Positions 8,031-23,173 of a DNA stretch of 41,943 bases are shown piece after piece (the first letter of the stretch is position 1; every line of letters starts with the position of its first letter). The stretch comes from Deltaproteobacteria bacterium (GTDB lineage: Bacteria > Desulfobacterota > Desulfarculia > JACQYL01), in assembly GCA_016208165.1 (NCBI GenBank), contig JACQYL010000048.1, positions 54,007 through 95,949 of the forward strand. Reading direction: 5' to 3'. The notes beneath the pieces were generated by a model, which was not told the DNA's origin, did no database searches, and worked only from the letters and a program-made list of their open reading frames with translations. The position numbers and the translations under genes were made by a program.

Positions 8031-8912
8031 TCACGAGGACGTGTTCTCTTTGTACACCTCTTTCAAATCCTGGTATTCCTTCTGAGGTAATCCGTATTTG
8101 AACTTGTATCGTTCGCTGCCCTCGAAGCACATGAGCGACGCATCGGCCCTGACGCTCAAGGGCATGCGGTCCGTGGCCGCCGCATACACACCGCAGTTGA
8201 AGGCCCATTTGGCCGTCTTCTCCGGAGAGGCTCCGGGCTTCAGCGGATGGCTGTACGGATGCTCGATATGCAGCATGCGGAAACGATCGGGAGGCGCCAG
8301 GACCCGCTGCCACCCGAGGTCCCCAGCCTTGACCACCACCCAGGAATCCATGGAACCCGCGGTGAGCAGGAACGGCGGCGTTGGAATCAGGTGCTTGCGG
8401 CCATCGGTGGCGCGCAAGGCGAAGAGATCCAGGGCGGTCCATTCCTCGGGCCGGGACTCGGAAACGGCCCGCTGGAAATCCTCGACCGTGGCGAGCCCTT
8501 TGTGAAACGTCCAGTTGTGACGGGGCAGGCTGTACAAGGTGTCCCGTTCGATGTACTGCTGCAGCCAGGAGCAGATGCCGGGCCCCAGAACGATATCGCC
8601 GTTTATGTACACAAAGATCTCGGTGTCGCAGTCCATGAGCACGGTTTCGAACATCAGCTTGAAGCTGTGAAGCGGTCCCGGAAACAGGTAGTGCCGGTAC
8701 CACGGAATCACCACGCAATCATACCCGTGTCTGGAAGCGTATTCCGCGGTCTCCACCTCCGAAGGCCAGCAGATGAATTTGACCTTGATTCCGTCGGTTT
8801 GTTGCCAGTTCAGTCCCTGCAGCACGGTCTCGTTCCGTTCGATCCACTCGCCCTTGAAGGTCCTGAACGCCACGTACACCGTGATGTCACGTATTCCGGG
8901 TTTGACTTCCAT
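8031..8912 (-). CDS. Putative glycosyltransferase (GT-A-like), last gene of glycan operon
   Basis: A 293-residue protein without signal peptide. The N-terminus (ITVYVAFRTFKGEWIERN) begins like a nucleotide-sugar-binding fold. YINGDIVLGPG (residues 102-112) resembles the acidic metal-binding motif of GT-A transferases, and ALRATDGRKHLIPTPPF with SMDSWVV follows. I do not recognise a defined family, so donor and acceptor are unknown. An upstream-extended frame would run into the dehydrogenase gene. ATG 8912 is preferred because GGAG (in the last codons of the preceding gene) precedes it and only 2 bp separate the genes, indicating coupling. Confidence 0.6.
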   Translation of the reverse strand: MEVKPGIRDITVYVAFRTFKGEWIERNETVLQGLNWQQTDGIKVKFICWPSEVETAEYASRHGYDCVVIPWYRHYLFPGPLHSFKLMFETVLMDCDTEIFVYINGDIVLGPGICSWLQQYIERDTLYSLPRHNWTFHKGLATVEDFQRAVSESRPEEWTALDLFALRATDGRKHLIPTPPFLLTAGSMDSWVVVKAGDLGWQRVLAPPDRFRMLHIEHPYSHPLKPGASPEKTAKWAFNCGVYAAATDRMPLSVRADASLMCFEGSERYKFKYGLPQKEYQDLKEVYKENTSS

Positions 8913-8914
8913 GC

Positions 8915-10159
8915 TTACTCCATGAACCTCAGCACCACCGTGTTTTCGGACAGGTTCCGCCGCCAGGACTCGTCCTGAAACTCGGGCCAGGGGGTGAGAA
9001 TCGCCACGACATCGGCGTCCCGGACGCATTCGTCCAGGCTTCCACAGACTTTCCAGTCTCCCGTCGCGCGGGCCATGGGATCGTAAACCGCCAGCTCGAG
9101 TTCCGGATGGTCCGCCGATAGTTTTCGGGCTACATCCAACGCCTGGGAGCATTCCACCAGGGGAGTGTGCGGTTTGTACGCCAGACCCAGCAGAGCGACT
9201 CGAGGCCCGTTGCGCCGGGCGGCGTCCCGAATTCTCGCGGTTACACGCTGAACCTGGCTGTCATTGATCTCCAACACGGCTCGTTGGAGCCCCGTATATC
9301 CGCGGACCTGTTCCGCGAAGCGGATAAACGCCTGATTGTCTCTCGGAAAGCACGGTCCGCCGAAGCCCAGCCCGGGTCGGATGTACTTACTCCCTATGCG
9401 GCTGTCGCGCCCCAGAATGGTCATGATGGCCCTGGGGTCGGCCTGCGGGAGGTTTTCACACAGGGCGCCTATCTGATTGGCGAAACTGATCTTCATGGTG
9501 CAGAAGCAGTTGATCGCCAGCTTGGCGATTTCCGCGTTGAGCACGCCCGTCCTCGCCGCATAGGGACGATGCTCGCACACCCGATCGTAAACGGCTTGCA
9601 GAGCATCCCCGGTCTCCGGGTCGGATTCGCCGATCAGCAAGAGATCCGGATTCAGGAAATCCGAAATTACGCTGCCGATGGCGACGAATTCCGGGTTGTA
9701 GGCGTATCCGAGATCCTTCCCCACCTTCTTGCCGGTCTCGCGTTCGATCAATGGGATAAACCGATCCTGGCCGGATCCCGGCATGACCGTGCTGACCACG
9801 TTCACTACAAAACGCGTTTTCAGATCTTTTAAAGCCGGCGCCATGCCTGACAGCACCGTCAGGACAGCTTCGTTCGAGAAAGAGCCGTCGGACAGGGAAG
9901 CGGTGGGCACCACGATAAAGGCCATATGACTCGCCCGGATCGCTTCCCCGAGATCCGTTGAAAAGCACAGGTTTCCCCTGACCTCGTCCAACAATTCGGA
10001 AAGCCCTGTCTCGGGAAAGGGGGCCTTGCCTTTCTCGAGTTCGGCCACGTAGGATTCCCGGATGTCCACACCGATGACCGGGTATCCTCCTCGAGCCAGG
10101 CACGCGGCCGTGCAGAGACCCAATTTCCCGAGTCCCACAACGGAAATCGCCTCAATCAT
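8915..10159 (-). CDS. UDP-glucose/GDP-mannose dehydrogenase family protein
   Basis: A 414-residue nucleotide-sugar 6-dehydrogenase that oxidises an NDP-hexose to the uronic acid with 2 NAD+. Evidence: N-terminal Rossmann motif SVVGLGKLGLCTAA, the central family segment AYNPEF, LAINCFCTMKISFANQIG, and the catalytic cysteine in GFGGPCFPRDNQAF. The C-terminal substrate-binding domain begins at about VALLGLAYKPHTP. Substrate (UDP-Glc, UDP-GlcNAc, UDP-ManNAc) cannot be told from sequence alone. ATG 10159 has GGAG at 8 nt; an ATG two codons upstream is too close to it. It overlaps the end of the GT2 gene by 8 bp. Confidence 0.9.
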   Translation of the reverse strand: MIEAISVVGLGKLGLCTAACLARGGYPVIGVDIRESYVAELEKGKAPFPETGLSELLDEVRGNLCFSTDLGEAIRASHMAFIVVPTASLSDGSFSNEAVLTVLSGMAPALKDLKTRFVVNVVSTVMPGSGQDRFIPLIERETGKKVGKDLGYAYNPEFVAIGSVISDFLNPDLLLIGESDPETGDALQAVYDRVCEHRPYAARTGVLNAEIAKLAINCFCTMKISFANQIGALCENLPQADPRAIMTILGRDSRIGSKYIRPGLGFGGPCFPRDNQAFIRFAEQVRGYTGLQRAVLEINDSQVQRVTARIRDAARRNGPRVALLGLAYKPHTPLVECSQALDVARKLSADHPELELAVYDPMARATGDWKVCGSLDECVRDADVVAILTPWPEFQDESWRRNLSENTVVLRFME

Positions 10160-11021
10160 GTTCATCTCTCCGGATTTCCCGCAGGAAACGTCTAGCTCTC
10201 CGGGCGCACCGGATGCTCTCCCGCATCAAGTTCTCGTAACCGCGGTTTCGCCATGCAGCCGGTTCCGCGGGATTGTCCGGATCGTGTTTGCGGACGCGGT
10301 ACAGCACCCTGGGCACATGCTTGAATCGGCATCCGGCCAGAGCGAAGCGGAAGAACATGTCATAGTCGTTGGCGTTCCGGTAGCCGGGGTCGTAGTATCC
10401 GACCTTTTCATGCAACGACCTCCGATAGAGTTTGCACGCGCCCAAGTGGAACCAGTCCGCCAGGCAGGTGCGAAACGTGTACTCGGGCTTTTCGAGGCGC
10501 TGCAGGATGCGGCCTCCATTATCCACCACGAACATGTCCGCATAGACGAAATCCGCTTCCCCCGTTTCGAGGACTTGCACCATTTCGCTCAGAGCGGTGG
10601 GCAGGAACGCATCGTCCGCCACCAGGTATGTGCAATAAGCGCCCGTGGCCCTCGTGAAACCCTCGTTGTAGGATCGGGTGGCGCCGATGTTTTCGTCGCT
10701 TTCTAAAACCACCACGCTGCGGCCGGCCGGATATCTCTTCCCACAGGAGCGTATCAGGCGCTCCTCGCCGTCCGAATCGTCCATTCTATCCAGATACGAG
10801 ACCTCGTCCTGCTCGATACCTCGGAGGTAGTCTCGCATGATCCGGTCGGTTCCATCCGTCGAGCCGTGATTGCAGACAATCACTTCGATATTCGGGTAGT
10901 CCTGGAACAGAACGCTGTCCAACGCCTCGGGCAGGGTCTGTGCCTGGTTGAACGTCGGCACGACGACGCTCACCAGAGGTTGTTCCGCTGCTTTTTCGGG
11001 AGACCACTCCATCCATCGCAT
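10152..11021 (-). CDS. Glycosyltransferase family 2 protein
   Basis: A 289-residue GT2 (GT-A fold) enzyme transferring a sugar from an NDP donor in cell-envelope glycan assembly. It shows SVVVPTFNQAQTLPEALDSVLFQDYPNIEVIV at the start (residues about 18-50), the STDGT donor-binding segment, ENIGATRSYNEGF and VADDAFLPTALSEM (metal-binding acidic motif). The C-terminal region GYYDPGYRNANDYDMFFR is typical of GT2 acceptor sites. No membrane segment is visible. Start may be ATG 11021 or ATG 11012; AGG is better spaced from the latter. It lies 7 bp after the radical SAM gene. Confidence 0.88.
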   Translation of the reverse strand: MRWMEWSPEKAAEQPLVSVVVPTFNQAQTLPEALDSVLFQDYPNIEVIVCNHGSTDGTDRIMRDYLRGIEQDEVSYLDRMDDSDGEERLIRSCGKRYPAGRSVVVLESDENIGATRSYNEGFTRATGAYCTYLVADDAFLPTALSEMVQVLETGEADFVYADMFVVDNGGRILQRLEKPEYTFRTCLADWFHLGACKLYRRSLHEKVGYYDPGYRNANDYDMFFRFALAGCRFKHVPRVLYRVRKHDPDNPAEPAAWRNRGYENLMRESIRCARRARRFLREIRRDEHD

Positions 11022-11028
11022 CCTGCTT

Positions 11029-12183
11029 TCAGATAAACCGGTAGGTCATGGAATCCCCCTGGATCACATGCTCGAAGATCTGGTTGTGGGGCTGATACGT
11101 ACACCTAGGGCATTCCTTCAGGTTCAGGGAATCGAATATGGCCCAGTGCGCTTCGGATCCCCAGATTCGTTCCACTTGAGCAAAATCCGTAAATCCCTCG
11201 CTGAATTCGAGTCGGCCGTCCCCACGGCGATCGCAGCACAACCCCACGTTGAAGTCGCCGCGCCCGGCTTCCACGGGAGGCATGAACACGGCCGTCATAA
11301 AGACGGCGTGGCACCTGTGGAACCGGTTGGCTCGGTTCAACAGGGAATCGAACTTATGCGTGACTCCATAGACGCCGAAGGTTTCGTCCTCGAGACTCCG
11401 CGCCTCGGAGATCTGCCGCGCGAGTTCATCTCGCACCTCGGGGCCGAACAACCTCCCCCTGTTTCCGGGCAGCCGGTCCCAGGGTATCCCGCCGGGCCTG
11501 AGATGAAAATTCCGGCAACCGAGTTCTTTGGCTTTACGAACGGCAGGCAAAATGTCCCGGGCATTCCCGTTCCACAAGAGATATTTGTAAGTCACGCCGT
11601 ATCCCGGCCGTTCCGTTCCCAGGCGACATCCATTCTGTTTGACGGCCTCGTTGAGCAGACGAATGTTTTCGGTCACCCGGCCGAATCGGTCTTTTCCCTT
11701 GAGTTGCAGATAGAGATCTTCGGAACCCGCGTCAACCGACACACCCACCCATGTGCATAGAGAGAGCGCTTCCACATGCTCGTGGATCCGGGTGCCGTTG
11801 GTCACAACGCCCACCTCGATGTTCCTGCTTGTGCAAGCCTCGATGAAATCCCCGATATAAGGGTGCAGGAGGGGTTCCCCGCCTCCGGCAATGCACACGG
11901 ATTCGACTCCCCGCGGCCACTCGGGACTTCCCCGCCATCGTGAGAGACCCTCCGCCAGCTCTAGGAGGGCACTCCTGTTCATGGCGCGATTCCTGCGGTC
12001 CAAAATGTACCCGGCGTTGCACCACGGGCAAGCAAGGTTGCAGGCGTTGATCGGATCCACCGTGACCAGCACGGGCTGCGGCGCCGGTTTTCCCCGCTCG
12101 ATCAGCCGCCAGCGATACACGTGCGCGAGCAGTTTGTAGCTGTTGAAAGGGTTCCATCTCCTGGAACCGGACCATTCTTCCAC
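11029..12183 (-). CDS. Radical SAM protein with SPASM-like C-terminal cysteines
   Basis: A 384-residue protein. The radical SAM 4Fe-4S motif is CNLACPWC (Cys48, Cys52, Cys55), followed by the GGGEP motif (AGGGEPLLHP) that contacts S-adenosylmethionine and VVTNGTRI. Late cysteines (CHAVFM, GLCCDRRGD, CPRC) suggest auxiliary Fe-S clusters of the SPASM/twitch type. Substrate is unknown; within this operon a sugar or glycan-carrier modification is a fair inference. The start is GTG at 12183 with AAGGA just upstream; no in-frame ATG fits better. Confidence 0.82.
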   Translation of the reverse strand: MEEWSGSRRWNPFNSYKLLAHVYRWRLIERGKPAPQPVLVTVDPINACNLACPWCNAGYILDRRNRAMNRSALLELAEGLSRWRGSPEWPRGVESVCIAGGGEPLLHPYIGDFIEACTSRNIEVGVVTNGTRIHEHVEALSLCTWVGVSVDAGSEDLYLQLKGKDRFGRVTENIRLLNEAVKQNGCRLGTERPGYGVTYKYLLWNGNARDILPAVRKAKELGCRNFHLRPGGIPWDRLPGNRGRLFGPEVRDELARQISEARSLEDETFGVYGVTHKFDSLLNRANRFHRCHAVFMTAVFMPPVEAGRGDFNVGLCCDRRGDGRLEFSEGFTDFAQVERIWGSEAHWAIFDSLNLKECPRCTYQPHNQIFEHVIQGDSMTYRFI

Positions 12184-12233: not shown

Positions 12234-13190
12234 CTACAGAGATTCATATGCGCCCGTAAGCACTTCGAGAACCCGGCCTTCATTCCAGACCTGCTCCATG
12301 AAAGCCCTGCTCTCCCTGCCGATGGCATCCCGCTTCCCGGAATCGTTAACCAGTTCGTTCAGTCTTTGCTCGAGTTCCCCGGGATTTCCCGCCGGGACCC
12401 AGGGAAGGCTCTGCCTGCCGGTAAAGCGACGGATCTGTTCCACATTCCATTGGTCCAGGCCGGCGATGACGGGCTTCCCCTGACTGAGCGATTCCAGGGA
12501 CGAAATTCCGAACCAACCGCGCATATGGTCGAACACCACATGGCAGCTGCGTTTCAGCCGCAGACAACGACGATGCGGCATCCGTTCGATCACCAGGAGG
12601 GATACTCGGGGATTCCGGTCCTTCACGCGCGACATCGCCTCCACAAACTAACGGGTGTTCTTGTGATACTTTCGCGTAGGCGCCTGGCAGACCCGGATTT
12701 CGTCCTGAGGCAAGCTGTTTTCGAACCTCGGCAACAGGGCCGCGTCGTTCAGAGGCGCCAGATTAGGAACCCATACGGCGTTTTCCGCCACTTTGAGCAG
12801 ATCCGGCGTGGCTACGATCACCTTCCTGCCCAGACGCCGGTATTTTTCATTGAATGCATCGGCATTCAGAATGTAGTCGGGGTGGCCGTGATGATGGTGC
12901 AGGATGCGTTTCCCGCGAATGTAATCCCGAACCACCAATGGGCCCAGATGGGCGTTCTCGTCGCTGAGCATATGAAAATGGAAAACATCGGCCTCGATCA
13001 TCAGTTGTTCGAGTTCCCCGTAATCGTCGTCGTGGATGTCGGGCAGATGTAGGTCCGTCTCGTACTCGAAACCGTATTTTTCCGCCGTGGAAACCAGGCG
13101 GCACCGGTGGGAGGTGTACCGGTTTATGGCGTTGGTAAAGGCGATTCCCATGCCTGCGGGGTCATTGGCGGTGATCATGAGGATGTTCAA
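12234..13190 (-). pseudogene. GT-B-type glycosyltransferase interrupted by one in-frame TAG
   Basis: Two pieces in the same reading frame are separated only by a TAG codon at 12650-12648. The N-terminal piece (to KYHKNTR) has NILMITANDPAGMG, typical of a GT4-like N-terminal domain, and HHHHGHPDYI. The C-terminal piece has FGISSLESLSQGKPVIAGLD, the donor-binding EX7E-type region. FVEAM directly after the stop continues the usual linker (KxT..FVEA). The start is TTG 13190 with GGAGG about 8 nt upstream; the frame is open further up but lacks a start with a binding site. A C, G or A to T change would explain the stop. It may be a pseudogene, a sequencing error, or less likely read-through. Confidence 0.8.
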
Positions 13191-13306
13191 AAGAGACGCC
13201 TCCCATGCGAGCAATCAACGTTTTTCCGATCACCGGGATGCTTACCGTTCACCCGATTTACGGTTCCTGCGCCTGTGTCGGCGAACGAATTCAGAGCCGT
13301 TCCCGT

Positions 13307-15175
13307 TTAGAGATCGTAGCCGGACAGACGGGTCAGGGCTTCGATGAATCCACGTCCTCCGTGCAGGTGCCCCAGCCATATCTCCGGCACCCAGGTGTCT
13401 CTGTAGTCTGAAAAAAGGGGCATCACGGCATTGAAATCGATGTCCCCATCCCCGATCTGAATCCCTTCGCCGTCCAGTCCGCGTGCGTCCGCGAAATGGA
13501 TGTGACGAATGTGCTCCCGAACGGCCTCGATGAACTCGCAGAGATCGACGCCTCCGGCGTTGCAGTAGAGTGAAGCGTGGGACAGATCGAAACAGAAGCC
13601 CGAGTCGGTCCGGCGACAAAAGTCGACGATGTCCTCCGGTCCCATGAAGTAGTGTCCCCTCCATTGGCCTCCGAAGTACCAGGGAAAAGGAGGGAGGTTC
13701 TCCATCAACAGCTCCACCCCATCGCTGCGAAGCTCTTCCCATGACCTGAGGAGGTTTTCCCGGAGCCGCTGCGGGACCGAATCTTCCTTGAGGCTCATGG
13801 CTCCCGGATGCACCACCAGTTTGGGCGATCCTTTGAATCGTGGGCTCCATTTCCGGGCCAGGACAATGGCCTTGCGCACCTGCTCGACGGACCGGCCGCG
13901 GGTGGCTTCATCCTCGGCGCACAGGTCAACCAATTGATCGCCCATGTACTCCGGTGCGTGGACGACGAGATGCTGCGGAAAAACCCGTTCGGAAATCTCC
14001 GCTGTCTCGAGATCATTCTCCGTCAGGCGAATTTCAAGCGTTTTAGGATTCAATCGGATGAATTCCCCCGCGTCACTGAACCGGGCGATCAGACCCCACA
14101 GGCTTTCAAACCCGTTTTCCGTGGACCGCGGGCCGTGGTCCGCGTCATCGCTCTCCGTGAAGTAATCGTCCGGTTCGTAATCACGCGTCGCCCGGAGTCC
14201 CACGATTTGGTGGAGCCGATGGGGCGGTACGCCCCGGGCGGGCCCCTTCGCACACACCATGGACTTGCGGATCGGGGTCCCCCGCGGAATGAACCGGGCC
14301 GCCACCAGGCTTTTGCCGAACAGTTCCCGATTCAGAATTTCGCCTTGGGAGAGATGGTCCGTTTCTTCTCCCATGGCGTCCTCGGCTACCCTGATTTCCT
14401 CGACCAGCCGGCGAAATTCATGAGGTTCCAAGCTGGCGCGATGGTCGGGACCGGGCATGTTCCGGTTCAGGGTCAGATGTTTTTCTATGATACAAGCGCC
14501 CAAGGCCACGGCGATTAAAGGGATCGTAATTCCGACGTCGTGGCTGGAATAGCCCACCGGACGCCCGAAACGTCTTAGCGAAACCATTCGCTTCAGCTGC
14601 GCCTCCCTGGGGTGTACCGGATATACGCTGCGGCAGTGCAGCAGGGCGAAAGGGATATCGTGCGCATCGAGCACGGCCACGGCTTCCTCGACCTCTCGAC
14701 CGGTAGCCATTCCCGTCGAGACAATCATGGGCTTTCGAACACGGGCCACCGCATCTAACAGGGGGATGTTGGTGAGATCCGCCGATGCGATCTTGTGAGC
14801 CGGTAAATCGAGGCTTTCGAGAAAACGAACGCTCGCAGCGTCAAACGGTGTGCACAAAAAGTCCAGTCCCAGATGGTCCGCTTCCTGTTTTAGGCCGACG
14901 AAGGTCTCTTCCTCCAGCTCGGTCTGCCGCAAAACGGGGATGATATACTGAATATGTTGTTCGAACCGCCAGGTGCATTCCAGAACGTCCCTCCGGTAGA
15001 GATCGGATAAATTCCGTTTCTGGAATTTAACCGCATTGGCGCCCGCTTCGGCGGCCGCCTGCATCAACCGAAGCGCCGCATCCGGATCTCCGTTGTGGTT
15101 GATGCCGATTTCGGCGATGACATAGACAGGTTGCCCTCCGCCTATGGAGGTAGTTCCCAGGACCATCGTTCTCAT
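13307..15175 (-). CDS. NeuB-type nonulosonate synthase fused to SAF domain and sugar-phosphate isomerase-like TIM barrel
   Basis: A 622-residue three-part protein. Residues 15-265 form the NeuB domain that condenses phosphoenolpyruvate with an N-acyl sugar to a sialic-acid-like nonulosonate: IAEIGINHNGD, AVKFQKRN, FLCTPFD, KIASADLTN, STGMAT, GYSSHD and IIEKHLTLNR are all family motifs. Residues 286-345 match the SAF/antifreeze-like domain (FIPRGTPIRKSMVCAKGPARG). Residues 355-620 resemble an AP-endonuclease-2/sugar isomerase TIM barrel (HLVVHAPEY, LVVHPG, MENLPPF, FCFDLSHASLY, HIHFADARG). Plain NeuB proteins are about 350 residues, so the tail is an added module that may make or epimerise the substrate. 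ATG 15175 has GAGG just upstream. It lies 24 bp after the regulator. Confidence 0.9.
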   Translation of the reverse strand: MRTMVLGTTSIGGGQPVYVIAEIGINHNGDPDAALRLMQAAAEAGANAVKFQKRNLSDLYRRDVLECTWRFEQHIQYIIPVLRQTELEEETFVGLKQEADHLGLDFLCTPFDAASVRFLESLDLPAHKIASADLTNIPLLDAVARVRKPMIVSTGMATGREVEEAVAVLDAHDIPFALLHCRSVYPVHPREAQLKRMVSLRRFGRPVGYSSHDVGITIPLIAVALGACIIEKHLTLNRNMPGPDHRASLEPHEFRRLVEEIRVAEDAMGEETDHLSQGEILNRELFGKSLVAARFIPRGTPIRKSMVCAKGPARGVPPHRLHQIVGLRATRDYEPDDYFTESDDADHGPRSTENGFESLWGLIARFSDAGEFIRLNPKTLEIRLTENDLETAEISERVFPQHLVVHAPEYMGDQLVDLCAEDEATRGRSVEQVRKAIVLARKWSPRFKGSPKLVVHPGAMSLKEDSVPQRLRENLLRSWEELRSDGVELLMENLPPFPWYFGGQWRGHYFMGPEDIVDFCRRTDSGFCFDLSHASLYCNAGGVDLCEFIEAVREHIRHIHFADARGLDGEGIQIGDGDIDFNAVMPLFSDYRDTWVPEIWLGHLHGGRGFIEALTRLSGYDL

Positions 15176-15199: not shown

Positions 15200-15904
15200 T
15201 TAGAGGTCGATCAACCTGCACACCCGGATGCCTTCCGACTCCAGATGCCGAATCTCCTCGAAAATCTCGTCCTGCCTGGCGTAGGACGTGATGAGCACGC
15301 AGTCCGGCTGTATGGCGGGAACGGCCTCCCGTCCCTCCACCGGGATCCCGAAAAACCGTTTGCCTTGCTTTTCCGGGTCGTTGTCAACGATACCGACCAC
15401 CTGGACCGGCATTTCCTTCAGTGCGGCGAACACGATTTCGCACGTTTCGCCGGCGCCGAACAATACCACCCTTCGAACTCCTTCTCGTGGCAAGCTCATG
15501 AGTTTATGGACCAATTCGTGTTTTGTCGCGATGTAGAGGCGGACGATGTCCACGGAGTAATCGATGAAAAGCTTTGACAACCGATTGTACCCTTTCGGCG
15601 TAAGACTATACCGCATACTCCGGTTGGTGTGTCCTTCCACTCGAATCAGACCCTCGTCCGCCAGCCGCCGGATGTAGTTATTCACCATGGTGCTGCTCAG
15701 ATGGACCCGTTCGGCCAGGATATGCTGACTCATGGAAGGATTCTCGTTCAGGCATGCGAGGATGAACAGCTCACGAAACTGCTTGGTAGGCAGAAGGAAT
15801 TTGGAAATTCCGGGGTCTACCAGACCATCGGTCTCGTGTGTGTGGGGCGTTTTTGAGAGCGGTTCATTCAACCCGTTCAAAGAATGCATGGCCGGTTTGT
15901 TCAT
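15200..15904 (-). CDS. Winged-helix regulator with C-terminal Rossmann-like domain, first gene of glycan operon
   Basis: A 234-residue protein. Residues about 42-105 form a MarR/Lrp-like winged helix (QFRELFILACLNENPSMSQ, recognition helix STMVNNYIRRLADEGLI, wing with SLTPKGY). Residues about 144-232 form a nucleotide-binding fold: VVLFGAGETCEIVFAAL, then GIVDNDPEKQGKRFFGIPV and DCVLITSYA, like the N-terminal domain of CapD/PglD sugar enzymes. This suggests a transcription factor that senses a nucleotide or nucleotide sugar (inference). GGGGAG precedes the ATG. A promoter and a 21-bp dyad lie 33-61 bp upstream, consistent with autoregulation of the whole operon. Confidence 0.78.
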   Translation of the reverse strand: MNKPAMHSLNGLNEPLSKTPHTHETDGLVDPGISKFLLPTKQFRELFILACLNENPSMSQHILAERVHLSSTMVNNYIRRLADEGLIRVEGHTNRSMRYSLTPKGYNRLSKLFIDYSVDIVRLYIATKHELVHKLMSLPREGVRRVVLFGAGETCEIVFAALKEMPVQVVGIVDNDPEKQGKRFFGIPVEGREAVPAIQPDCVLITSYARQDEIFEEIRHLESEGIRVCRLIDL

Positions 15905-15936
15905 CGATGTTTTCTCCCCGTACTCGCATCTTCGCG

Positions 15937-15957
15937 ACTATACACAAACTGTATGGT
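15937..15957. promoter_or_regulatory. Probable operator dyad overlapping the promoter
   Basis: Arms ACTATACA and TGTATGGT (7 of 8 pairs) flank CAAAC. The dyad covers the -10 box and most of the spacer, the place where a repressor would block polymerase. The likely ligand is the winged-helix protein encoded immediately downstream; this is inference. Confidence 0.5.
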
Positions 15958-15965
15958 GAGTGCAA
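15937..15965 (-). promoter_or_regulatory. Sigma-70-like promoter of the glycan operon
   Basis: On the minus strand TTGCAC (15965-15960), a 17-bp spacer and TATAGT (15942-15937). It points into the regulator gene, whose ATG is 33 bp downstream of the -10 box. Confidence 0.65.
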
Positions 15966-16507
15966 CAGGCCTTTCTGTGTGGAATATTTTGCCGATCCAC
16001 GTCCCGAATCCCCGAACGTGTCTTTCGGGGATGGCCTTGAACCGCCGTCGGAAAGAGATGTTCGGCGCAACTTCCCGTCCCCGTTACATGGGTATGCAAC
16101 TATCGGGCCGAGCTGTGACCGGGTCCCGTCGGAGGGCCGCCTTTTTCTCTTAATCCCGCGGACGGGCCTGATGTGGTTTAAAGCCACTGTCTTCGAAATG
16201 GAAGGTTGGTTGGTCCATTGAAACCGACCGGAAGGGCAGAGAGGGAGTCCAATGTCAACGGGCGATGGGCGTGGATCCATACGGCCGATTTCCTTCCGGC
16301 GAAGGGTGAAGCGTTTGAAGCTTCCATCGCGGGAAAATCAGCGATGACCCCGAGTGTGAAACAGGACGCCTATCTCTTGAAATACCATCGCATGTTCTCT
16401 TCCAATGATCGCTTGCTCCGCAATCGAGTTGATGATATAGGAGTATAGTCCAATCTCGAAACAGATCGGATTCGATAACCGACATAGTAAGGGGGCAGCT
16501 TTCCATC
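15966..16507. other. Gene-poor divergent intergenic region
   Basis: About 540 bp between the glycan operon promoter and a plus-strand small gene. Short ORFs on both strands here (for example 16206-16448 plus, and minus-strand frames ending in 15864-16280) lack ribosome binding sites and family motifs. I see no tRNA or convincing structured RNA. Confidence 0.4.
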
Positions 16508-21985: not shown

Positions 21986-23173
21986 TCACGACGGCGTTCG
22001 TTCTCCAGGAACGATGAGGCCATTTAACGCCTCCCGGACGAGCTGTTCCGGCGTCTTTTTAGCCTCGAATTCAGCCCAGCCGACGGAAACTCGAGGCGTG
22101 GCTCCCTCCGCCACGTCCGCCAGCTTGGAGGAGGCGATTTCACTGATTCGGCGGGCCAGGACTTCTGCGGCCCACTTTGGAGTACCGGGCAGAATCATGG
22201 CGAACGTTCTATCATCGTAGCGTGCGATCACGTCAGAGAGCCGAACCTGTTTTCTCAGGACATACGCCAGTTCGAAATGCCATTCTTCCACCTTCGTATC
22301 CTTTCGAGCGCTTTGGACTTGAACCAGCACAACACTGAACGGCTGTCCGTATCGCTCGCCACGGGCACACTCCTCGGCGAGGCGAATGTCCAGCTCGACC
22401 CGGGAGAGCAGGCCCGTATGAGGACACCGTATGCTTTGGACGCCGGAGAGAAAATTAAGGAACGCTTCGTTTGTCACTCTCTCGAACTCGCCGGAGGGAG
22501 TGTCCACCACAATTTTTCCCTCGTCGAGCATGGCGATCCGGTCGGTGATCGTGAAAATATCCGGTATTTCGTGACTTACGATGACGGCGGCAAATCCGTG
22601 ATGACGTTGAGAAGCCGCGATGAGTTCGTGAACGGAGTTCTTGCGCAAAGGATCCAGTCCGGTGGTAGGTTCGTCGAAAAGAATGATGTCCGGATTATTC
22701 ACAAGAGCCCGAGCCAACCCAACTCGTTTTCGCATGCCGCCGCTGAGTTGTGGCGGGAATTTTTCTCTGGCCGCTATCAATCCCACGTGATCCAGAAGAT
22801 CTTTGACTTTTTCCTGGATTTGGGTTTCCGAAAGCTTGGTCGTTTCCCTCAGAGGCAGCGCCACATTCTCGAACACGGTCAGACTGTCGAAAAGCGCTGC
22901 ATTCTGGAAGAGAAAACCCATCTTGGAACGGACGTGTTCGAGCTCACCCCGAGAAGCCTTGCCAACATCCACTCCGTTTACCAGCACCTGTCCGGCGTCG
23001 GCTCGCATCAGTCCTATAATGTGTTTCAGGATGAGGCTCTTGCCCACCCCGCTTTTCCCGATAATACCAACGGTCTCCTTCTGGTAAACATTAAGGGAAA
23101 CTCCTTGGAGCACGGGTGTGTCCTTAAAACTCTTGTAAATATTGTCAACAGCGATGATCGGTGATCGTTCCAT
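21986..23173 (-). CDS. MlaF-like ABC ATPase fused to a degenerate GGDEF domain
   Basis: 395 residues. Residues 1-245 are an ABC ATPase of the Mce/Mla lipid transport (Ttg2A) group: Walker A GKSGVGKS (39-46), Q-loop FLFQNAALFDSLTV, signature LSGGMRKR (143-150), Walker B IILFDEP (163-169) and H-loop SHEI (His201). Residues about 250-390 align with a GGDEF domain (CPHTGLLSR, RYGQPFSVVLVQV, SDVIARY, FAMILPG, RVSVGWAEF), but the signature reads DDRTF (320-324), so cyclase activity is unlikely. The RxxD I-site (RLSD, 311-314) is kept at the canonical distance. No mlaE or mlaD gene is adjacent. The start lacks a strong binding site. Confidence 0.85.
   Translation of the reverse strand: MERSPIIAVDNIYKSFKDTPVLQGVSLNVYQKETVGIIGKSGVGKSLILKHIIGLMRADAGQVLVNGVDVGKASRGELEHVRSKMGFLFQNAALFDSLTVFENVALPLRETTKLSETQIQEKVKDLLDHVGLIAAREKFPPQLSGGMRKRVGLARALVNNPDIILFDEPTTGLDPLRKNSVHELIAASQRHHGFAAVIVSHEIPDIFTITDRIAMLDEGKIVVDTPSGEFERVTNEAFLNFLSGVQSIRCPHTGLLSRVELDIRLAEECARGERYGQPFSVVLVQVQSARKDTKVEEWHFELAYVLRKQVRLSDVIARYDDRTFAMILPGTPKWAAEVLARRISEIASSKLADVAEGATPRVSVGWAEFEAKKTPEQLVREALNGLIVPGERTPS

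Follow-up and report, generated by a model that had tools for sequence, protein, structure and literature searches.

The 234-residue regulator encoded at 15200–15904 of the window, the stretch of 41,943 nucleotides analysed here, probably acts as a one-component autorepressor that responds to a ligand and controls a nonulosonic-acid (sialic-acid-type) glycan operon. As judged from sequence, the protein combines a winged helix with a Rossmann domain, its gene adjoins neuB, and a putative operator of the kind found in its family lies at its own promoter. The regulator probably turns the sugar operon off once enough activated sugar is present. The genes of the operon are as follows.

15200–15904, minus strand: regulator gene, 234 aa (open reading frame, domain searches and AF2)
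13307–15175, minus strand: neuB-type nonulosonic acid synthase (NeuB and SAF domains) fused to a TIM barrel, 622 aa (domain searches)
12234–13214, minus strand: GT1-like glycosyltransferase (domain search and clade I homologues)
11029–12183, minus strand: radical SAM protein (domain searches)
10152–11021, minus strand: glycosyltransferase family 2 (domain searches)
8915–10165, minus strand: nucleotide sugar dehydrogenase of the UDP-sugar 6-dehydrogenase type (TIGR03026, 313.7 bits, cut-off 189.8)
8031–9152, minus strand: 373-aa protein without a Pfam match, probably the last gene of the run

The preliminary description of this DNA had made the regulator the first gene of a glycan operon, and the neighbouring genes bear this out, as neuB, the glycosyltransferases and the dehydrogenase follow on the same strand. 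The regulator gene runs from its start at 15904 to its stop side at 15200, and the ATG of neuB lies at 15175, 24 nt after the regulator stop. The frame of the GT1-like glycosyltransferase is interrupted by one in-frame TAG (12650–12648, minus strand) with conserved sequence continuing on both sides, which may mark a pseudogene, readthrough or an assembly error. Among the window proteins scanned, none was recognised as a CMP-nonulosonate synthetase. Elsewhere in the window, a single open reading frame (21986–23173, minus strand) carries both ABC transporter ATPase and GGDEF domains, an unusual pairing.

The regulator family and its linkage to neuB

A relative spanning both domains is found in 6 of 63 genomes of the window's class, and with a seven-row profile 187 of the phylum's 395 genomes gave matches; many of these are full-length proteins, and others are confined to the short MarR_EPS form. 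We took 80 full-length or near full-length loci and left out weaker, partial and short MarR_EPS-only matches. In a tree of 81 proteins, a clade of 14 that includes the window regulator (support 100/99) is separated from the 67 others; we refer to these as clade I and clade II, respectively. Two clade I members, L061 and L063, are long branches whose placement is unsure; the neuB tally includes them, and motif training does not. We then widened clade I to 65 loci, defined by regulator sequence with the neighbours as no criterion, through 50 more loci of family f45, which we take to be Desulfovibrionaceae, and two others. From f45, 55 of 62 matches were used (G518, G596, G602, G613, G618, G624 and G629 were left out). 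Since many f45 loci are close relatives, with an effective number of about 54 of 63 upstream regions by a loose k-mer rule, the counts below do not represent independent events. Genes around the relatives were called by a longest-ORF rule, and start codons by position and HMM, so that ATG distances at single loci may be off.

A tblastn search with the window NeuB domain places a neuB homologue downstream of the regulator, in the same orientation, at 62 of 65 clade I loci versus 3 of 67 clade II loci, and we count this linkage in favour of a nonulosonic-acid autorepressor. In particular, 57 of the clade I neuB homologues start within 50 nt of the regulator stop, the start being extrapolated from the alignment. 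The clade I loci without a downstream neuB are L061, L063 and L213. The last of these is a second clade I regulator in genome G539, with no neuB nearby. A homologue of the window glycosyltransferase is present downstream in 28 of the 65 clade I loci. The fusion partner of the window synthase is a xylose-isomerase-like TIM barrel, matched in 3 of the 65. Gene linkage thus presents the window's clade as a neuB-linked regulator, apparently tied to nonulosonic acid synthesis.

The gene that follows the regulator was assigned to a family at 62 loci, mostly of clade II, and the assignments include NusG (15), NDP-sugar epimerase (15), CapD-type (10) and NeuB (6). The NusG-type genes suggest pairs of a repressor and an antiterminator at polysaccharide clusters. 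The next gene at several clade II loci (L069, L072, L081, L116 and L120, for example) encodes about 170 aa, its NusG assignment being judged by length. We found no description of the regulator family in the open-access literature searched, which comprised open-licence papers only, and this large family of regulators for sugar operons is apparently undescribed.

Regulator domains and a possible Rossmann pocket

The regulator begins with a disordered extension (about residues 1–35). In the AF2 model, calculated from 102 sequences with a pLDDT of 90.4, this is followed by a MarR-type winged helix at residues 41–101 and by a 33-residue helix at residues 103–135, which joins the winged helix to the Rossmann domain at residues 145–230 with its loop GAGETCE and the segment VDNDPEKQG. 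The model is a monomer, and the placement of the domains is therefore less certain than the single domains. The regulator matches HTH_24 (4.5e-12) and MarR (1.2e-9) in Pfam, and its winged helix fits MarR, PadR and Sso10a structures at Z 11–12.7. The Rossmann part scores above the gathering cut-off of PF08484, the Methyltransf_14 C-terminal domain (32.2 bits, cut-off 23.5), below that of PglD_N (PF17836; 16.1 bits, cut-off 23.4), and below the Pfam cut-off of CoA_binding; the NCBIfam model NeuD (TIGR03570) gives 28.5 bits (E 1e-6) against a cut-off of 160.8. In structure comparison, the Rossmann part fits 3nkl, a UDP-QuiNAc dehydrogenase domain that we group with the N-terminal domains of PglF and CapD, at Z 12.2 over 93 residues with an rmsd of 2.3, and the sugar C-methyltransferase KijD1 ranks first in Foldseek. 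Sequence matches, model and structure comparison together support the winged helix and the CapD/PglD-like Rossmann domain of the preliminary description.

The conservation pattern of the Rossmann domain suggests a pocket, though not one with the canonical NAD loop. Of 102 family members, 99 retain E156 and 101 retain G150, and within clade I each of D174, K179, T206 and S207 is present in 46–48 of 49 members. Following the first strand, most clade I members carry the loop GASETCE, with Ser at the second Gly position of the dinucleotide loop in 32 of 49 and without a third glycine.

The main rival reading is a Rex-like redox sensor, in which the Rossmann domain would read NADH/NAD+ and couple the glycan operon to the redox state. 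Rex is the best sequence match among solved structures (E 0.0092), Rex C-domains fit the Rossmann part at Z about 11, the NCBIfam Rex models match weakly, and the aspartate that closes the second strand, D174, is conserved, all of which speak for such a sensor. However, those weak matches amount to 12.6–16.6 bits against cut-offs of 126–217, and superposition of the full chain on Rex gives an rmsd of 12–14 for the single-chain model, in which each domain alone fits and the full-chain arrangement of Rex is not reproduced. The serine and the missing third glycine of the clade I loop also argue against it, as does the setting of the family, which adjoins sugar genes and not respiratory genes; we judge a redox sensor to be quite unlikely. 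Alternatively, the Rossmann domain might have ceased to bind a ligand and serve only for dimer or tetramer formation, which would leave a plain autorepressor that holds the operon at a constant level. Divergence of the domain, its degeneracy in some members (L061, for example) and the non-canonical glycine loop are consistent with such a loss, but the conserved residues listed above point to a pocket, both across the family (E156, G150) and within clade I (D174, K179, T206, S207), and this reading seems to us distinctly improbable.

For the ligand-responsive autorepressor that we prefer, fold and gene context make a nucleotide sugar the most likely effector. This guess draws on two precedents. 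A report on WbaP (PMC10942596) describes a comparable domain that is stabilised by UMP, UDP and UTP, is destabilised by UDP-Gal and is proposed to be an allosteric sensor, and a paper on human sialic acid synthesis (PMC4793188) describes feedback inhibition by CMP-Neu5Ac at the level of the enzyme.

Putative operators at the promoter and within the operon

The candidate control elements in the window are listed below.

15937–15957: O1, the dyad of the preliminary description (sequence; 5-nt spacing of the family)
15937–15942, minus strand: −10-like TATAGT, inside the right arm of O1
15961–15966, minus strand: −35-like TTGCAC, weak, 3/6 to TTGACA
13244–13264: O2, ACCGTAAA-TCGGG-TGAACGGT on the minus strand, in the gap between neuB and the glycosyltransferase gene

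Upstream regions of the relatives contain a conserved palindrome, as expected of an autorepressor. The clade I operator, found without the window, is ATCATTSA-N5-TSAATGAT (23 columns; log-likelihood 436 versus 86 for shuffled sequences in a free model). The clade II operator, found independently, is AaTGTTCA-N5-TGAACAtT, with the core ATGTTCA-N5-TGAACAT; it reaches at least 10 bits in 40 of 66 upstream regions (log-likelihood 366 versus 43 shuffled). A half-site model trained on clade I upstream regions of f45 alone attains a score of at least 14 in 20 of 66 clade II upstream regions versus 3 of 450 upstream regions of other genes, and in 1% of shuffles. When gaps of 0–11 were tested, a spacing of 5 was prominent, with 19 clade II and 40 clade I upstream regions at a score of at least 15; at that score, gap 1 accounts for 12 clade I upstream regions and gap 9 for 10. 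Outside f45 there are eight clade I relatives, and in five of them the best score comes from the half-site CCATTCA at spacing 1, not 5.

The operators crowd in front of the regulator genes. Clade I has 57 sites in the 300 nt before 44 of 63 regulators versus 6 elsewhere in 671 kb, and clade II has 65 sites before 47 of 67 regulators versus 6 elsewhere in 870 kb; the matrices were trained partly on the tallied upstream regions, a dependence from which the cross-clade test with the f45 model is free. Some regulators (15 of 67 in clade II and 13 of 63 in clade I; L105, L107 and L091, for example) are preceded by at least two operators. Twenty clade II genomes (about 64 Mb), picked for the strong own site that nearly all of them have, contain 20 near-perfect sites, of which 14 are located at the start of the regulator itself. 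The clade I pattern, with up to two mismatches, occurs 0–25 times in each of 17 genomes, where the reversed-pattern control is unfair because of the make-up of the pattern, and we draw no genome-wide clade I regulon from these counts.

O1 reads ACTATACA-CAAAC-TGTATGGT on the plus strand and ACCATACA-GTTTG-TGTATAGT on the minus strand, with 7 of 8 arm positions complementary. The dyad is present as the preliminary description had it, but alone it is within chance, since dinucleotide shuffling of the upstream 120 nt yields an 8-nt dyad with at most one mismatch and a gap of 0–10 in 224 of 1000 cases; the dyad by itself was rejected as evidence. For this reason we turned to the relatives, and it is the independent discovery of the operator upstream of them that raises O1 above chance. 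When the region upstream of the regulator is scored with the clade I palindrome, O1 ranks first at 10.8 bits, with the next site at −2.8 (7 of 400 shuffles). With the f45-only half-site model, its score is reached in 24 of 1000 shuffles when a gap of 1 or 5 is allowed and in 17 of 1000 when only a gap of 5 is allowed, while the clade II matrix gives O1 no support (452 of 1000 shuffles). The left arm, ACCATACA, is 7/8 identical to the half-site ACCATTCA of L095 and L096. O1 thus appears to share spacing, position and a related half-site with the family operator, and the match is moderate. A dyad that was not conserved upstream of orthologues was to count against the earlier proposal; this check did not refute it, since spacing and position turned out to be shared, although the letters of O1 have drifted. 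In its own genome, no site besides O1 lies within two mismatches of the dyad pattern first described.

The promoter assigned earlier, TTGCAC-17-TATAGT, stands exactly where it had been placed, with 17 nt between TTGCAC (15966–15961) and TATAGT (15942–15937), but its −35-like element agrees with TTGACA at only three of six positions, and the list returned by our promoter scan does not contain it. That the dyad covers the −10 box holds, with TATAGT falling within one arm of O1. Where a sigma70-like promoter can be recognised in a relative, the operator often lies over the −10 or the start site, and the window layout, with the −10 in one operator arm, recurs in L072, L073, L077, L078 and L081, where the operator centre is 11–13 nt before the end of the −10.

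O2 was found by a clade I matrix scan of the whole window (12.8 bits; local shuffle p 0.005) and lies 41 nt past the neuB stop, ahead of the glycosyltransferase gene. The nearest relatives of the window locus have sites at the same place (L102, 20.5 bits; L096, 18.6 bits; L095, 15.7 bits; 0 of 200 shuffles each), and L111 has a 13.3-bit site 1 nt after the neuB stop; the other loci among the 62 tested, including most of f45, are mostly without a site there. The 5.69-Mb genome has three occurrences of a pattern that covers both O1 and O2, and because this pattern was written from these two sites, its recovery of both is no test. O1 and O2 are its only intergenic occurrences. The third was dropped, as it lies inside an open reading frame, and with this distribution control by the regulator looks local to its own operon.

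Two further readings concern these sites. O1 might be a chance match, the true control site being either O2 only or the dyad ATCCCCGAA-N7-TTCGGGGAT at 16008–16032, a perfect 9-nt inverted repeat located 103–128 nt before the regulator start. This repeat is longer than the O1 dyad, is rarer (6 of 1000 shuffles versus 224 of 1000) and is unique in the genome at 0–1 mismatches, and the family models match O1 only moderately. However, the repeat resembles neither the family half-site nor its spacing and is not the best site of the family models, whereas O1 combines a location at the promoter with the 5-nt spacing and with a left arm one letter away from the half-site of L095 and L096; we consider a chance match unlikely. 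The other reading, suggested by clade I loci, is an activator or dual regulator at sigma54-type promoters. Elements resembling −24/−12 occur in 29 of 64 clade I upstream regions (window included; 1.55 expected from shuffles) versus 1 of 66 in clade II, and the window contains a single one, a 9/11 match at 16095–16110. But the regulator is without an AAA+ domain, some 140 nt separate the window element, which may be a chance match, from O1, and in L095, L096, L203, L224, L225, L226 and L228 the operator starts 0–3 nt after the −12, a position suited to blocking, which leaves activation very improbable in our estimate. Sigma54-like elements are also seen upstream of L119, L240 and others, and they sometimes overlap a sigma70-like promoter.

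Proposed mechanism and comparison with known systems

In the autorepressor mechanism that we favour, a regulator dimer held by the long helix would bind O1, each of its winged helices occupying one 8-nt arm, and the bound dimer would block the −10. A regulator bound at O2, between neuB and the glycosyltransferase gene, would tune the distal genes. A nucleotide in the Rossmann pocket would set the affinity for DNA. This ligand would most likely be a nucleotide-activated sugar of the pathway, either CMP-nonulosonic acid or a UDP-amino sugar precursor, and it would close a feedback loop from product to synthase.

More tentatively, and with more doubt than conviction, we suggest that the regulator represents a widespread, undescribed class of transcription factor that senses nucleotide-activated sugars through an enzyme-derived Rossmann domain. 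Clade I would then comprise a nonulosonic-acid feedback repressor that acts both at the promoter and at a second operator in the gap from the synthase to the glycosyltransferase gene, and clade II would serve other surface polysaccharides, often beside a NusG-type gene. Switching off the operon once enough activated sugar has been made would give bacteria a little-known means of metering their surface sugars. Bacterial surface-sugar pathways are held back by their products at the enzyme level; to our knowledge, very few transcription factors are known to respond to the activated sugar itself. The specific link to neuB and the second operator inside the operon go beyond the preliminary description. 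Testing the feedback idea should need only one purified protein and a small set of ligands, since the family supplies a defined protein and a defined operator, its spacer mostly fixed at 5 nt, together with a conserved pocket and one obvious operon as target.

PF08484, which matches the Rossmann domain above the Pfam cut-off in the window regulator and at E≤1e-3 in 9 of 81 family members, is a domain of the sugar C-methyltransferases KijD1 and TcaB9; in the regulator, by contrast, it is fused to a DNA-binding domain, and there is no methyltransferase domain. The fold is also similar, through 3nkl, to the PF13727-type domain of the PglF/CapD dehydratases and the WbaP-type phosphoglycosyl transferases. 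The WbaP-type domain is proposed, in the report cited above, to regulate its enzyme directly, whereas that of the regulator would act on transcription. The N-terminal domain of NeuD/PglD acyltransferases is a weak sequence match to the Rossmann part, but the regulator stays below both cut-offs and lacks a hexapeptide repeat domain.

Among regulators, MarR_EPS (TIGR04176) has the same winged helix and following helix and belongs to polysaccharide gene clusters, a combination that the present family shares, and its model matches 77 of 81 family members at E≤1e-3. Unlike the regulator, the MarR_EPS model spans 105 aa without a Rossmann domain, and its cut-off of 88 bits is above the 33.2 bits of the window regulator as well as the scores of ten members, seven of which give 33.4–79.7 bits and three no match at E 1e-6. 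Rex resembles the regulator in placing a winged helix before a Rossmann domain in one chain. The regulator differs from Rex in the other relatives of its winged helix, in the long MarR/Sso10a-like helix between the domains, in the absence of a canonical NAD loop and in its sugar-gene context. By these sequence and structure comparisons, the regulator appears to stand outside both MarR_EPS, as delimited by the cut-off, and Rex, and to resemble the working of each in part.
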